A DNA stretch of 27,021 nt from a virus. A model generated the notes under the pieces. It made no database searches and was not told where the DNA came from. It worked only from the letters and a program-made list of their open reading frames with translations. Below are positions 13,141 through 21,989 of the stretch, piece after piece. Position 1 is the first letter of the stretch, and each line of letters begins with the position of its first letter. Both the position numbers and the translations under genes were made by a program. The DNA lies in IMG/VR virus record IMGVR_UViG_3300011115_000393, positions 1 to 27,021 of that record; one strand, written 5' to 3'.

Positions 13141-13258
13141 AATGATTCACTTAAGTTAAATACAACTTAAATTATACTTATAATAGTTATTACTTATAAT
13201 ATTTAATTTAAGTGTATTTTAACTTTTAAGTTCCCTTTACAAGGTGTACGCCTTCGGC
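13141..13258. repeat. A/T-rich repeat cluster with GC hairpin (copy A)
   Basis: Contains ATGATTCA, then AAGTTAAATACA (13154-13165) inside a perfect TTAAGTT/AACTTAA stem (13151-13170). TACTTATAATA occurs twice at 16-bp spacing (13175, 13191), and an inverted near-copy TGTATTTTAACTT lies at 13213-13225. A hairpin with GCC-TTC-GGC core follows near 13246-13258. The same words in the same order recur at 17515-17595. On the minus strand this lies in the untranslated leader of the terminase transcript. Confidence 0.6.
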
Positions 13259-13338
13259 TATACATCTCAGGCTTAGAAGTCTTAACTTAGTAGTGGGGTC
13301 AGGCTACTTAGTAAACACAATTATTTGCTATGAAGAAT

Positions 13339-13367
13339 ATTGTATCATACTTTTGTCTATTTGTCAA
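13339..13367 (-). promoter_or_regulatory. sigma70 promoter for the terminase operon
   Basis: On the minus strand TTGACA (13362-13367) and TACAAT (13339-13344) are separated by exactly 17 bp, the same hexamers and spacing as the scaffold/capsid promoter. The expected start near 13332 gives a leader of about 280 nt before the small terminase gene. Shared flanks (CTTGACAAA and ATG.TACAATA) suggest both promoters derive from one another. Confidence 0.85.
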
Positions 13368-13423
13368 GCTTTTATTGTCTTCTACTCATTTATTTTTACT
13401 TTTTCCGTTGTTTTTAACAACTT

Positions 13424-13565: not shown

Positions 13566-13800
13566 GTACTTTAGAGGCTCCCGCAAAAGTAACTCACAAG
13601 CCATGACCCTCCCCCCTATAAAGTTAGCACTCACTTACATTGTAGTGTCTCTAATGACTGGCAAGTCAGTAAAGTCATATGTATACTTATGAGTTTAAGT
13701 TAGTAAGTACTCACTAGCATACTTGCATGAAACGTAAATGAGAATCATTCGCATCTACAATGTTGGGGCATGAAGGGCTATGTAGGAGCCTCTGAAGTAC
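13566..13800. repeat. 16-bp inverted repeat arms around a 203-bp core
   Basis: The left arm at 13566-13581 reads GGAGCCTCTAAAGTAC on the minus strand; the right arm at 13785-13800 reads GGAGCCTCTGAAGTAC on the plus strand, 15 of 16 identical. The right arm continues into a second tandem CCTCTGAAGT. The core contains a stem TGACT-GGCA-AGTCA (13655-13668). Possible long-range hairpin or protein-bridged loop. Confidence 0.55.
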
Positions 13801-13832
13801 CTCTGAAGTTACTCAGGGTTAACCCTTACAGC

Positions 13833-13887
13833 GGCAATATTTGCCTATGAAGCGGCAAAATTTACCATAGCACCGGCAATATTTGCC
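13833..13887. promoter_or_regulatory. three 21-bp-phased palindromic operators
   Basis: GGCAATATTTGCC at 13833-13845, GGCAAAATTTACC at 13854-13866 and GGCAATATTTGCC at 13875-13887. Centres are at 13839, 13860 and 13881, exactly 21 bp (two helical turns) apart, so a dimer bound to each would sit on the same DNA face. They lie about 85-127 bp upstream of the likely start of the rightward operon, the usual place for enhancer sites of sigma54 activators. The recognising protein is unknown. Confidence 0.75.
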
Positions 13888-13939
13888 GTTAGCGAAGCGT
13901 TAAAGTAACAGTTTTGAATATAAAAGTATTACAAAAAAG

Positions 13940-13956
13940 CTGGCATAGTAGTTGCA
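13940..13956 (+). promoter_or_regulatory. sigma54-like -24/-12 promoter of the rightward operon
   Basis: CTGGCATAGTAGTTGCA matches the RpoN consensus YTGGCACG-N4-TTGCW at all positions except the C and G at the seventh and eighth. The essential GG (13942-13943) and GC (13954-13955) are separated by exactly 10 bp. The start would be near 13966, about 30 bases before the first ATG. A palindrome GATAG-AAA-CTATC (13958-13970) covers the start point. No good sigma70 pair was found for this operon. Confidence 0.6.
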
Positions 13957-13995
13957 TGATAGAAACTATCCTAACCAACCAACTAAGGAACTACC

Positions 13996-14202
13996 ATGAA
14001 AGAACAACTCATTCACATCACATACAAAGATCAATATGGCATTCATTCATATTCGCTCGAGGGCTTTGTAGACGGTGATTTTGTAGGTTTTGCAAGCGCA
14101 TCTAAGGATAGAGTACAAAACGAGCTAACATGGTATCAGGATAACTTTAAGGGCTTGCCAATAACATTCACGACAATCACAGAGGAATTAAACCATGCTT
14201 GA
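13996..14202 (+). CDS. hypothetical protein, first gene of rightward operon
   Basis: A 68-aa protein (MKEQLIHITYKDQYGIHSYS…). AAGGA lies 6 bases before the ATG. It looks like a small alpha/beta fold: two or three strands (HITYKD, SYSLEGFVDGDFVGF) followed by a helix (KDRVQNELTWYQDNF). No cysteine cluster, signal peptide or membrane segment is present. I do not recognise a family. As the first gene behind the sigma54-like promoter it could be among the earliest made, and its end overlaps the next tiny gene by 8 bases. Confidence 0.6.
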   Translation: MKEQLIHITYKDQYGIHSYSLEGFVDGDFVGFASASKDRVQNELTWYQDNFKGLPITFTTITEELNHA

Positions 14203-14290
14203 GAAAATCATTGACGTATGCTTTGCCGTATTAATTGGCCTTATGCTTGCCGTTGGCATGCTTGCCTATTTTGACGTGCTCACAAAATAA
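14195..14290 (+). CDS. 31-aa single-span membrane peptide
   Basis: Encodes MLEKIIDVCFAVLIGLMLAV and ends GMLAYFDVLTK. Residues about 6-27 form one hydrophobic helix flanked by charged ends, so it should sit in the inner membrane. The start lies inside the end of the preceding gene, with AGAGGAA about 8 bases upstream, and 17 bases separate it from the Gp88-like gene. Small size lowers certainty, but the ribosome site, overlap and clean membrane-helix pattern support it. Role unknown. Confidence 0.5.
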   Translation: MLEKIIDVCFAVLIGLMLAVGMLAYFDVLTK

Positions 14291-14307: not shown

Positions 14308-15177
14308 ATGCAAATTAAATTGTTTTCAAATAGTGCTCAAAAATTCAAAGCTTTGCAAGGGCTTGCAATAGCTATTCAAGGTGGCACTAAAGATAGTGCA
14401 TTAGAAGCTTTGAAGGGCTTGCAAGCTTCGCCCATGTTCACGGGCAAGGGGTGGCAAGATAATTTTGCAAAGCTTGAGCATACGTTCAAAACCTTAGATC
14501 CTAATTATAGTGTGTTTTCTTTGAATGGTAATTCTAAGTTGCCCTTCGTATCGTTCTCAAGCTTGCCCGGTGTGACATGTCCGGGAGCGGGCGAATGCTT
14601 AGATTTTTGTTATAGCTTCCGTGCATGGCGTTATCCAGCGGCATTCATGAGACAAGCCCAAAATGCATATTTAATGCGTTATGCTCCCGATTCTATCGTC
14701 AAAGCTTTGCACAATGTAAATGCATCGTTTAAGGGTTCACAATATGATGTGCGTCTATACGTTGACGGTGATTTTAGTTCAAATAGTGACGTGAAATTCT
14801 GGTTCGACCTAATTAAAACCGTGCCCAATGCAAGGGTTTACGGTTATTCTAAAAGCTTCAATCAAATTATGTCTTATGAGGGTGAATTGCCGTCTAATTA
14901 TGTCTTAAACGTATCAGGCGGGCACAATGCACATGGTGCAATGATCACGGCCATTAAAACCTTGTCTATAACTAGGGGCGAATTTATTGCCGTACGCATA
15001 GGCAAAAAAGTACGTTCAAGTGATCACGGCAAGCCGGAAACCGTCAAAGCTTTAAGACAAGCATTCACGGGCAAAGCTTTTCCATGTCCGGGCACGTGCG
15101 GTACATGTACTGGCAAGGGCCATGCGTGCGGCATGCAAGCTTTGAAGGGCGTGCCTATTATCATCGCCATGCATTAA
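14308..15177 (+). CDS. cysteine-rich Gp88-like phage protein
   Basis: A 289-aa protein with two cysteine clusters: Cys91-x5-Cys97-x3-Cys101 (in LPGVTCPGAGECLDFCYS) and Cys260-x3-Cys264-x2-Cys267-x6-Cys274 near the end. The plan, with CPGA…C…CY early and a Cys-rich end followed by a short IIIAMH tail, resembles the mycobacteriophage gene product 88 family, whose function is unknown. The second cluster has the CxxxCxxC spacing used for iron-sulfur clusters in radical SAM enzymes, though there it is N-terminal. The middle (…DVRLYVDGDFSSNSDVKFWF…NARVYGYSKS…) looks like alternating strands and helices, as in a barrel. AGGGGATC precedes the ATG. Base composition is unlike the rest of the window. 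A terminator follows at 15224. Confidence 0.6.
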   Translation: MQIKLFSNSAQKFKALQGLAIAIQGGTKDSALEALKGLQASPMFTGKGWQDNFAKLEHTFKTLDPNYSVFSLNGNSKLPFVSFSSLPGVTCPGAGECLDFCYSFRAWRYPAAFMRQAQNAYLMRYAPDSIVKALHNVNASFKGSQYDVRLYVDGDFSSNSDVKFWFDLIKTVPNARVYGYSKSFNQIMSYEGELPSNYVLNVSGGHNAHGAMITAIKTLSITRGEFIAVRIGKKVRSSDHGKPETVKALRQAFTGKAFPCPGTCGTCTGKGHACGMQALKGVPIIIAMH

Positions 15178-16053: not shown

Positions 16054-16181
16054 TCAAACGTATGCGGGCAAGGTTTCAAGGGCTATGCTGCAGATCTGGC
16101 GCACGTATCAATGTAGGCGATGAGATTATGTATGATACACTGACACGGCAAGCATGGATAACAATTGACAATGACAGATAA
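16050..16181 (+). CDS. 43-aa basic protein with Cys-Cys and GDxIxYD motif
   Basis: Encodes MIKRMRARFQGLCCRSGARI then NVGDEIMYDTLTRQAWI. The pattern A.F.G.C..SG..I..GD.I.YD recalls the N-terminal half of PARP-like zinc-finger or similar small nucleic-acid-binding domains found as short phage proteins. Only two cysteines are present, so a full zinc site would need other ligands or a partner. ATGA overlap with the gene before and an AAGGGG site upstream support translation. Confidence 0.55.
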   Translation: MIKRMRARFQGLCCRSGARINVGDEIMYDTLTRQAWITIDNDR

Positions 16182-17906: not shown

Positions 17907-18127
17907 ACACTGACATTGATCCTGATAAGCCTTGGCCTTTCCCGTCTAATATCATTCAAGGTGACAATGATGCTAAGTTGATAGCTGATTGTCTAGCCTT
18001 GTTGCAGGACTTCACTGCCTTCCAGCTTCGAGGTGAAATCTATTATGGCTACCTCGATACTAAGGCACTAAAGGTCATTGAAGAACTAAGGGAGGCTAAC
18101 AACAATGAAGCTGAACCTAGTACGTAA
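17903..18127 (+). CDS. hypothetical acidic protein, 74 aa
   Basis: Starts MNTDIDPDKPWPFPSNIIQG. A proline-rich opening is followed by a helical part (DAKLIADCLALLQDF, LDTKALKVIEELREAN). No family recognised. The ATG overlaps the end of the tiny peptide frame. It overlaps the primase-helicase start by 23 bases, so it is likely co-translated with that enzyme and may be a replication accessory factor, but nothing in the sequence proves this. Confidence 0.55.
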   Translation: MNTDIDPDKPWPFPSNIIQGDNDAKLIADCLALLQDFTAFQLRGEIYYGYLDTKALKVIEELREANNNEAEPST

Positions 18128-19751
18128 ACCTAACCCACCTTCAAAGTTCATTAGGCATATAGCCTGTGAACACTGTGGTAGCTCCGATGCTTGTTCTCTG
18201 TACGATGACAACCATACACACTGTTTTGCCTGTGGTAAGACAGAACATGAAACTGATGCTGATGAATTATCAGTTATGCAAGATGCAGTAGCACCACGAG
18301 TGGCAGAGCCACGGAGAAAGCAAACAATGCTAGAAATTAAAGGTCAGATTAAATCAATACCTGATAGAGGTATTACCCAGCAAACCTGTGAGAAATATGG
18401 AGTTACACAAGACAATGGACAACACTTTTATCCTTACACTGACGATGCCGGAGGAGTGGTCGCAGCTAAAGTTAGAAGAGTGGCAGACAAAACTTTCAGC
18501 ATTCATGGAGTATTCACGAATGCTAGGTTGTTCGGTCAACAGCTCTTTCACGCTGGTGGCAAAGCAGTCACCATCACTGAAGGAGAACTTGACGCTCTAG
18601 CAGCTTTTCAGATGAATGGTAGCCTCTACCCTGTGGTGTCAGTCAGAAACGGTGCACAAGCCGCTTTAAAGGACTGCAAGGCACAATATGAGTGGCTTAA
18701 CTCCTTCGATAGCATTGTCATTTGCTTCGATGCTGATGAACCGGGTAAGAAAGCTTCTAAAGAAGTAGCTGAACTCTTCGGTAACAAGGCTAAGATTGTG
18801 AAGCACTTAAGTGGCTACAAAGATGCCTGTGACTACCTCATTGCAGGCGCTACCAAAGAGTTTGTGAATGAATGGTGGAGAGCTGAGGTGTACATCCCTG
18901 ATGGCATCATCAATGCAGCTTCACTGTGGGAGGAAGTTATTAAACCTGAGGCTAAGGCTGAGGCTATGTACCCTTGGAAGGGCTTGAATAAGCTTCTCTA
19001 TGGTATCAGACCTTCAGAGTTAGTCACAGTCACAGCTGGTTCAGGCTTGGGTAAGAGTCAATTCCTACGTGAAATATTGTTCAATATACTGAACACTACC
19101 AAGTGGAATGTTGGAGGATTATTCCTTGAAGAGTCCACTCGTAAGACAGCTAGAAGCATTATGAGCTTACACGCTAATAAGCTTCTGCACTTGCCTGACA
19201 CACCAACTACTGAGAAGGAACTTAAAGATGCTTTCGATGCAACACTTGGTACTAATCGTGTGTATCTCTTTGACCACTTCGGTAGCAGTGACGTTGACAA
19301 CATTGCCAACAGAATCCGATACATGGCTAAAGCTTGTGATTGCAGGGTTATATTCTTGGATCATATTTCCATTGTTATATCTGGTCAAGACAATGGAGAT
19401 GAGCGTAAGGCTATTGATAACATGATGACAAAGCTTCGTACACTGGTGCAGGAGCTTGAGATTACATTGATCTGTGTCAGTCACCTTCGTAGACCTCAAG
19501 GGAACCAAGGTCACGAAGATGGTGGTAGCGTATCACTGTCGCAGCTCAGAGGCTCAGGTGCTATTGCTCAACTGAGTGATGCTGTGATTACCTTGGAGCG
19601 TAACAGTATGGCTGAGAACGATGAAGAAAGACATCAGACTAAGATTGCAGTGGCTAAGAATCGTTACAATGGTTATACAGGCCCAGCTTGTGTGCTCAAG
19701 TACAACATGGAAACTGGACGCATGGTGGAGATGCTGGAGGAGACATTATGA
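18105..19751 (+). CDS. T7 gp4-like DNA primase-helicase
   Basis: A 548-aa bifunctional replication enzyme, close to T7 gp4 (566 aa). Residues 21-43 hold a zinc finger (Cys21-x2-Cys24, Cys40-x2-Cys43) that reads the priming site. The TOPRIM primase core has Glu159 in TEGELDALAA and Asp209/Asp211 in FDADEPGKKAS. The RecA-like DnaB-type helicase has Walker A GSGLGKS (312-318), Walker B ending at Asp419 in VIFLDHIS, and the SHLRRP and LRGSGAIAQLSD motifs. It unwinds the fork as a hexamer and primes the lagging strand for the polymerase encoded downstream. GGGAGG lies 10 bases before the ATG, within the preceding gene; ATGA overlap links it to the next gene. Confidence 0.93.
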   Translation: MKLNLVRKPNPPSKFIRHIACEHCGSSDACSLYDDNHTHCFACGKTEHETDADELSVMQDAVAPRVAEPRRKQTMLEIKGQIKSIPDRGITQQTCEKYGVTQDNGQHFYPYTDDAGGVVAAKVRRVADKTFSIHGVFTNARLFGQQLFHAGGKAVTITEGELDALAAFQMNGSLYPVVSVRNGAQAALKDCKAQYEWLNSFDSIVICFDADEPGKKASKEVAELFGNKAKIVKHLSGYKDACDYLIAGATKEFVNEWWRAEVYIPDGIINAASLWEEVIKPEAKAEAMYPWKGLNKLLYGIRPSELVTVTAGSGLGKSQFLREILFNILNTTKWNVGGLFLEESTRKTARSIMSLHANKLLHLPDTPTTEKELKDAFDATLGTNRVYLFDHFGSSDVDNIANRIRYMAKACDCRVIFLDHISIVISGQDNGDERKAIDNMMTKLRTLVQELEITLICVSHLRRPQGNQGHEDGGSVSLSQLRGSGAIAQLSDAVITLERNSMAENDEERHQTKIAVAKNRYNGYTGPACVLKYNMETGRMVEMLEETL

Positions 19752-20148: not shown

Positions 20149-20341
20149 CCTAGACACAATAGCTGGTAGAATGCTTGACTTGGAGACTAAGTACTATGAA
20201 ATGCAGGATAAGTATCAGTTACTCATTCACCACTATGAAGACTTGAAAGCAGAATATGAAGAGTACAAACTCGGAGAAGCGTATCGTATTGGACATAGAG
20301 ACAACCTTAGATCACAACACGATTTGGATGGTAGTCACTAA
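20141..20341 (+). CDS. small coiled-coil protein, 66 aa
   Basis: Starts MIDLDTIAGRMLDLETKYYE with AGAGGAAAG just ahead of the ATG. Residues 10-45 have a heptad pattern (…YEMQDKYQLLIHHYEDLKAEYEEYK…) suggesting a coiled coil. It overlaps the preceding gene by 8 bases and the DNA polymerase by 86 bases in another frame. The overlap with the polymerase is long, so the last third may be tolerated read-on rather than selected sequence. Possible role in coupling translation to the polymerase. Confidence 0.55.
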   Translation: MIDLDTIAGRMLDLETKYYEMQDKYQLLIHHYEDLKAEYEEYKLGEAYRIGHRDNLRSQHDLDGSH

Positions 20342-21989
20342 GGACATTGACACTGGAGAAGTATTTGTATGGAAAGCAGCAGACAGCCTCGTGGCGTATT
20401 TAAAGGACGTTACATTGATAATCGCACAGAACGGAATAGGCTTCGATTTCCCGACATTGAATCGGCTCTGGGGTACGAAGATTCGCTTGAACCAAGTGTA
20501 CGATACACTGATAGCCTCAAGACTGCTAGATCCCTCGATAGAGAACGGGCACAGCTTAGACGCATGGGGAACAAGGTTGGGGAAGAATAAGATTGACTAC
20601 GCAAAGGTATGGACATGGCTAATGGAACGACGAGAGGATTACAAGGGTGAGTGCTTCAACATTCCTCACATGGCTCTTCTGGAGTATTATTGCATTAGGG
20701 ACGTTGAGGTCACTTGTGATCTTTATACTCATCTTACTGATGAACTCACTAAGAAAGACTTTTCACAAGAAAGCCTTACTCTTGAGCATAAGGTAGCAGC
20801 TATCATTGAGGAACAAACACGACATGGATTCAAACTCGATCAAGTCTACACCACTTGCTTACTTGCTGACATCAAAGGAAAGATGGCTGGAATCTATGAG
20901 CAGATGCAAGAGAGATGGCCTCCAACGGTCACACCAAGGTTCCACAAGACAAGTGGAAAGCCCATCAAAGACTGCGTTGATACTTTCAATCCGGGAAGTA
21001 GAAAGCAGATTGGAGAGAAGCTGATGGAACTAGGGTGGAAACCTAAGGTGTTTACTGAGAAGGGTCAGGCTATTGTCGATGAGTCTGTACTTGCTAAGGT
21101 TCCTCTACCTGAAGCTCAGTTGATTGCCACTTACCTGATGTTACAAAAACGTGTAGCTCAGATTGAAAGTTGGTTAGAGGCTGTGGGTAAGGACGGTAGA
21201 GTGCATGGTAAGGTTATAACGAACGGAGCTGTAACTGGTAGGATGACACACAGTAGTCCTAACATGGCGCAGATTCCTAATGCTGGGAGTATTTATGGGC
21301 CGGAGTGCAGAGAGTGTTGGACTGTGGAAAGCGGTAACGTATTGGTTGGCTGTGACGCTAGTGGCCTTGAGCTGCGTATGCTTGCACATTATATGAAAGA
21401 TGATAACTATGTTAAGACAGTCACTGAAGGCTCCTCTAAAGATGGGACGGATGTTCACACGCAGAACCAGAAAGCTGCAGGCCTTGAAACGAGGGATCAA
21501 GCTAAGACCTTTATTTACGCATTCCTATACGGTGCAGGGCCAGCTAAGATTGGTTCCATTGTCGGTGGTAATGCTAAAGCGGGACAGAAACTTATCGATG
21601 CCTTTCTTAAAAATACACCCGCCTTACAACGTCTTAGAAATACGGTTAGTAGATATGCGGGTAAGGGCTTTGTACCGGGGCTTGATGGTCGTAAGATATG
21701 GGTGCGCTCCGAACACGCAGCTCTCAATTCGCTCCTTCAAGGGGCTGGGGCGATTGTGATGAAAAAGGCTTTGGTATTGTTTCACGACAAGACTAAGGCT
21801 AACAAGTGGCCTGTGAAGCTGGTAGCTAATGTCCATGATGAATTTCAGCTTGAAGTTCCTAAGATGTATGCTACAATAGTAGGTGAGGCTGCAAAGCAAA
21901 GTATCGTTGAAGCTGGTGAGCATTTCAAGCTTCGTTGTCCACTAGACGGAGAATATAAAATTGGTGCAAACTGGCGTGAAACACATTGA
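20256..21989 (+). CDS. family A (T7-type) DNA polymerase with 3'-5' exonuclease
   Basis: A 577-aa replicative polymerase. The exonuclease has Asp13 and Glu15 in VLDIETT (Exo I), AQNGIGFDFPTLN (Exo II) and YCIRDVEVTCDLY (Exo III). Polymerase motif A is CDASGLELRMLAHY with Asp367; motif B is RDQAKTFIYAFLYGAG with Lys417 and Tyr421; motif C is NVHDEFQLEV (His527-Asp528-Glu529). Tyr421 matches T7 Tyr526. It is about 127 residues shorter than T7 gp5; the region where T7 carries its thioredoxin-binding loop is nearly absent (…RFHKTSGKPIKD runs into FNPGSRKQIGEKL), so a host thioredoxin clamp is unlikely. The only suitable ATG is inside the preceding small gene, without a strong ribosome site. Confidence 0.93.
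   Translation: MKSTNSEKRIVLDIETTLDHNTIWMVVTKDIDTGEVFVWKAADSLVAYLKDVTLIIAQNGIGFDFPTLNRLWGTKIRLNQVYDTLIASRLLDPSIENGHSLDAWGTRLGKNKIDYAKVWTWLMERREDYKGECFNIPHMALLEYYCIRDVEVTCDLYTHLTDELTKKDFSQESLTLEHKVAAIIEEQTRHGFKLDQVYTTCLLADIKGKMAGIYEQMQERWPPTVTPRFHKTSGKPIKDCVDTFNPGSRKQIGEKLMELGWKPKVFTEKGQAIVDESVLAKVPLPEAQLIATYLMLQKRVAQIESWLEAVGKDGRVHGKVITNGAVTGRMTHSSPNMAQIPNAGSIYGPECRECWTVESGNVLVGCDASGLELRMLAHYMKDDNYVKTVTEGSSKDGTDVHTQNQKAAGLETRDQAKTFIYAFLYGAGPAKIGSIVGGNAKAGQKLIDAFLKNTPALQRLRNTVSRYAGKGFVPGLDGRKIWVRSEHAALNSLLQGAGAIVMKKALVLFHDKTKANKWPVKLVANVHDEFQLEVPKMYATIVGEAAKQSIVEAGEHFKLRCPLDGEYKIGANWRETH

Follow-up and report, generated by a model that had tools for sequence, protein, structure and literature searches.

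A predicted sigma54 promoter with an exchangeable enhancer before the replication operon of an uncultured tailed phage

Which promoter drives the replication genes of this phage, and which host regulator would it answer to? The window, i.e. the whole stretch of 27,021 nucleotides analysed here, is a 27-kb fragment of an uncultured tailed phage with 42% G+C. Packaging and head genes (terminase, portal) run leftward from about 13130 and replication genes (family A DNA polymerase, primase-helicase) rightward from 13996, the two sets being separated by a gene-free stretch of about 860 bp. A first-pass annotation, made from the letters of the sequence, had placed a sigma54 (RpoN)-type promoter before the rightward operon. 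The rightward genes referred to below are:

13996..14202, + strand: g68, the first gene of the operon, restricted to loci with a sigma54 cassette
14195..14290, + strand: a membrane-like ORF of 31 amino acids (MLEKIIDVCFAVLIGLMLAVGMLAYFDVLTK), which sister phages also have downstream
14308..15177, + strand: a GP88-like gene (PF17338)
18105..19751, + strand: primase/helicase, later in the same rightward gene set
20256..21989, + strand: family A DNA polymerase, likewise rightward

Nucleotide and protein searches among isolated phages yielded neither a close relative nor a host. Megablast gave no match to the window, and the intergenic region, the GP88-like protein and g68 were also without a match among isolated phages; the best identities in the protein search were 30-34% for the MCP, about 27-31% for the terminase and 50% for the primase, the last to a Pelagibacter phage. 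No match to g68 was present in PHROG, Pfam or INPHARED, and its predicted fold (mean pLDDT 64) was too poor for a structure search. Neither tRNA genes nor matches to Rfam families were found in the window.

Other elements were noted in the gene-free stretch and its surroundings. A strong leftward sigma70-like promoter, TTGACA-17-TACAAT (11/12, with TG preceding the second hexamer), lies at 13339-13367 (-), a position suited to driving the packaging genes, and relatives (loci with L numbers) conserve the window stretch 13165-13402. A Fur-box-like palindrome, AATGAGAATCATTCGCAT, at 13737-13754 also occurs in L019, L043 (as AATGAGAATCATTCTC), L110, L124 and L157, and a palindrome of the type AGTNAGTRCTYACT, repeated at 13622-13640 and 13702-13720, is also seen in the divergent region of L019, L055 and L124.

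The candidate promoter is as follows, its RNA start being placed 12 bp from the -12 GC, as is usual for such promoters:

13940..13956, + strand: predicted sigma54 -24/-12 promoter CTGGCATAGTAGTTGCA, RNA start predicted near 13966-13967

The box CTGGCATAGTAGTTGCA agrees fully with the sigma54 -24/-12 consensus, GG-N10-GC being intact, and lies exactly at the position and on the strand claimed earlier; the ATG at 13996 follows 40 bp past it, which agrees with the distance of about 40 bp given in the first-pass annotation. TGGCAYR-N4-TTGC has a single exact occurrence in the whole window, and the expectation for YTGGCAYR-N4-TTGCW is 0.035 per window on both strands (400 dinucleotide shuffles), bearing out the claim that such a match is rare by chance. 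The annotation had also suggested looking for the motif at the same place in related phages. Relatives were retrieved via the terminase and via g68, and loci for the conservation count were picked by g68 alone and not by the motif. A sigma54 box was found upstream of g68 in 20 of the 20 distinct relatives carrying this gene, within 900 bp and with at most one mismatch in 19 of them and at about 1 kb in the twentieth (L100). The small downstream genes differ among relatives, and g68 recurs. Across 27 distinct sigma54 sites compared, TGGCA and TGC are invariant and the spacer and flanks vary, an invariance that is not independent proof by itself since part of the set was picked by pattern. A second sigma54-like motif, present in L004, L056 and L080, falls within apparently coding sequence and was discounted.

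The earlier statement that the operon has no good sigma70 pair needs qualification, as a pair matching at 9/12 (CTGGCA-18-TATACT) is present upstream of the operon at 13658-13687 (+); it holds in so far as pairs of this grade number five in the region against 5.2 expected. Weak sigma70-like pairs also occur within the operon (e.g. at 16165), and thus sigma54 need not be its sole promoter. The sigma54 reading itself draws strong support from the conservation of the box, from the phased sites upstream and from the replacement of the enhancer only, both described below, and judged from sequence 13940-13956 is very likely a real sigma54 promoter.

Candidate activator sites upstream, also anticipated in the first-pass annotation, are predicted as three copies of GGCAA-N3-TTRCC:

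13833..13845, + strand: candidate activator site 1, GGCAATATTTGCC, a GGCAA-N3-TTRCC copy
13854..13866, + strand: candidate activator site 2, GGCAAAATTTACC, 21 bp from site 1
13875..13887, + strand: candidate activator site 3, GGCAATATTTGCC, 21 bp from site 2 and 53 bp before TGG

The 21-bp steps place the copies two helical turns apart, and a single site of this kind is expected 0.1 times per window. Sister phages carry the same three sites, the last one 42 bp before TGG versus 53 bp in the window, a difference of 11 bp or one helical turn. Bacterial and archaeal genomes were scanned for one GGCAA-N3-TTRCC site located 31-61 bp before a sigma54 box, and at least 120 site-plus-box matches were obtained, many of them in Alphaproteobacteria, with about 16 chance matches by our rough estimate. 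Among the 126 genome matches listed, 89 have gaps of 40-45 or 50-56 bp, ranges picked after inspection of the data, versus 53 matches expected if gaps were uniform, and the gaps in the same 126 show a periodicity at 10.5-11 bp (p about 1e-7). The 53- and 42-bp gaps of the phages both fall within the gap peaks of the bacterial genomes, which would put the activator on the right face of the helix.

The spacing bears on the possibility that the tandem sites are a decoy, titrating the host flagellar activator (or sigma54) so as to switch off motility or make resources available, with the drive of the operon being secondary. The presence of several site copies is consistent with this, as are like tandem GGCAA-N3-TTRCC arrays before a sigma54 box in phage contigs without a detectable protein match to this phage (e.g. 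L142/L325, L146/L346, L159, L314, L317, L332, L340, L341, L344 and L351). However, the sites keep a fixed distance and phase to the box and always face the same operon, which activation requires and a decoy does not, and titration as the main role is improbable.

The genes that follow such pairs in bacteria indicate the kind of activator. In the 80 loci scanned among the matches listed, flagellar and GGDEF domains abound in the ORFs after site-plus-box pairs (Flg_bb_rod 12, Flg_bbr_C 10, GGDEF 9), and FlgK, FlgI, FlhB and flagellin were also found there. When genomes were drawn evenly from two classes, six matches were obtained outside the query genomes versus none for the reversed pattern, and genes resembling those of FlgE, flagellin or FlgB follow three of these six. 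Sigma54 promoters with ftr sites are activated by FlbD (PMC3930126). As the phased site-plus-box pair precedes flagellar and GGDEF genes in bacteria, the likely activator is of the flagellar type and not one of nitrogen control; by the gene context of like sites it is probably a flagellar enhancer-binding protein of the FlbD/FlrC type, this putative link coming mostly from Alphaproteobacteria.

The first-pass annotation had linked infection to the nitrogen or stress state of the host, which is not borne out for this phage, with its sites of the flagellar kind, and fits its sisters with NtrC-like sites. In 14 terminase relatives three NtrC-like sites and then a sigma54 box come before the same operon start; the sites, ATCACCAACATGGTGCA plus two weaker ones, lie at about -182, -151 and -130 from TGG, three and two helical turns apart. 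ATCACCAACATGGTGCA is close to the published NtrC consensus TGCACCAnnnTGGTGCA, reported along with the RpoN motif TGGCACnnTTnTTGC (PMC8743547), and by this likeness nitrogen control is plausible for the NtrC-class sisters. These 14 sisters, with the same box and overlapping downstream gene sets, would favour NtrC as the activator in the window as well, so that its operon would answer nitrogen starvation. But the window has no NtrC-like (TGCACC-N5-GGTGCA-like) site in its intergenic region, near matches occurring in coding sequence only, and its enhancer is unrelated in sequence to that of the NtrC class (43-51% identity); NtrC control of the window is quite improbable. NtrC-like sites also precede sigma54 boxes in the distant relatives L106 and L135 and in other phages such as L110, L124 and L132. 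Facing sigma54-like boxes (TGGCACG-N4-TTGC and, close by, its reverse complement) were observed in L110, L114 and L124, phage contigs without a match to this phage. Several DnaA-box-like repeats, TGTGGATAA, occupy the interval from the NtrC sites to the sigma54 box in L003, L010, L014, L057, L063 and other NtrC-class loci and are absent in the cassette of the window. Searches of the NtrC-class cassette against isolated phages gave short matches (E about 1e-3 to 1e-1), taken as chance.

In a further 28 relatives, which have neither sigma54 cassette, the promoter and g68 are replaced by a different, direct-repeat array ending in TGTAAG-N5-YGTAA; in several of them a -10-like GATAAT or GATACT comes next. 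The direct repeat TTTGTAAG-N5-YGTAAG, about 10 bp before GATAAT/GATACT and upstream of the first rightward gene (L006, L019, L030, L034, L055, L062 and others), resembles a promoter of the OmpR/PhoB family of response regulators, and GTCTTATATAAGAC repeats occur in several loci of this class. No readable locus was found to carry two cassettes together, and L065 and L079, in which the full region is readable, match none of the three classes.

The limits of the exchanged segment were located by comparison with these sisters:

13829..13936, + strand: predicted swappable enhancer cassette, homology with sisters breaking on both sides

On the left, the homology of the window with the NtrC-class L057 and with L019 and L055 stops at 13800-13828, and on the right it resumes at 13937/13938 with the NtrC-class L057 and L010 and at 14240 with the direct-repeat class, the junctions between the two sigma54 classes being at the -24/-12 box. 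L020, of the flagellar type, and L014, L018 and L025, of the NtrC type, share 46-49% identity upstream of the box, about the level of unrelated sequence in this alignment, versus 95-98% in the leader and 94-95% in the first 400 bp downstream. The three classes require 18 changes on the terminase tree versus 17.6 for random labels; L027 and L028 have identical terminases and different cassettes, and the nearest relative of the window (L001) belongs to the direct-repeat class. Exchange on the terminase side would give the same picture, and the transfer may have gone in either direction. The main finding of the present analysis is that the enhancer appears, with high probability, to be a swappable cassette exchanged among sister phages. 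We lean, with less assurance, towards a three-way cassette before the replication operon within one lytic phage population, comprising a flagellar activator with sigma54, NtrC with sigma54, and two-component-type direct repeats with a sigma70-like -10, with the -24/-12 box as the recombination joint of the sigma54 enhancers. Close relatives would then respond to different sensors of the host, and it appears that these viruses switch from one such sensor to another.

The exchange also weighs on the view that the palindromes are operators of a host or phage repressor, the true promoter being of the sigma70 type and the sigma54 box coincidental. The sites are indeed palindromic, operators are frequent in phage intergenic regions and sigma70-like pairs lie nearby. 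However, all g68 loci retain the box, whichever of two unrelated enhancers precedes it, each of these enhancers matches sites of sigma54 activators, known or inferred, and the same site-plus-box pair marks bacterial flagellar promoters, which makes the operator view very improbable.

A further question is the source of the activator. Twelve relatives of 30-41 kb, which like the window are fragments, gave no Sigma54_activat match over the cut-off, two AAA-like matches below it and no integrase; a T7-type RNA polymerase was also without a match, a weak negative from a search without a positive control. The result for these 12 relatives is most simply explained by an activator from the host and a lytic life cycle, and the phage is apparently lytic. 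An activator encoded by the phage itself would require it to lie among the genes missing from the 27-kb window, whose relatives reach 41 kb, and is the least probable of the alternatives in view of the 12 long relatives with only two sub-cut-off AAA-like matches.

The model of a host-activated sigma54 promoter builds on the observed box and its conservation, the upstream sites and their spacing, the link of like pairs to bacterial flagellar genes, and the exchange. Host RNA polymerase with RpoN would wait at 13940-13956 as an inactive closed complex; a host FlbD/FlrC-like protein would occupy the three GGCAA-N3-TTRCC copies as adjacent dimers aligned along one side of the helix, form a hexamer and open the complex via ATP hydrolysis. 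The box would thus serve the rightward (replication) operon as an enhancer-dependent sigma54 promoter, and the need for a flagellar-type activator would tie the operon to conditions under which the host expresses its flagellar genes. Relatives would retain the operon and exchange the front piece for an NtrC-type enhancer or an array independent of sigma54. We infer the binding, the protein that binds, the activation, its timing, the benefit to the phage and the reach of the transcript along the rightward genes. Caution is suggested by the available text of PMC10976474, in which Pho boxes predicted in a cyanophage are called unreliable. Taken as a whole, the account of an enhancer-dependent sigma54 promoter with a flagellar-type host activator and an exchangeable front piece is probably correct.

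If so, these would be lytic phages with an operon under enhancer-dependent sigma54 transcription, silent until a host sensor protein fires, and a natural set of sister phages differing in the sensor used. Such a set would make it testable whether infection is gated by the motility or the nitrogen state of the host, and why several wirings coexist. As tandem arrays recur in unrelated phages, the strategy may be widespread among phages in the environment and simply have gone unseen in laboratory models. Our literature search turned up no lytic phage with a promoter of the sigma54 or NtrC kind, an absence that is not proof.

The nearest published cases in the available texts are the CtrA (PMC9437464) and PhoB (PMC10976474) phages, both without sigma54. 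Virulent phages of Alphaproteobacteria have CtrA-controlled promoters associated with lytic deferment and share with the present phage the sites for a host motility/cell-cycle regulator before a few phage genes, an arrangement that arose more than once (PMC9437464). CtrA is, however, not a sigma54 activator, and RpoN is unmentioned in the main text of that paper, whereas here the promoter would be enhancer-dependent and the enhancer exchanged among sisters. In the PhoB cyanophages a host two-component nutrient sensor likewise regulates phage genes; the Pho boxes act in Prochlorococcus and Synechococcus phages without sigma54, and a swap of the sensor between sister phages is not described in the available text (PMC10976474). 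Among bacterial systems, NtrC-sigma54 promoters of the glnAp2 type (PMC8743547) share with the sisters the ATCACCAACATGGTGCA array before a sigma54 box, whereas NtrC sites are missing from the window and in the sisters stand before phage genes. Flagellar sigma54 promoters of the FlbD (ftr)/FlrC type (PMC3930126) share with the window the upstream sites and the -24/-12 box; the likeness to ftr is one of gene context, and the genes driven here would be those of a phage and not of a flagellum.
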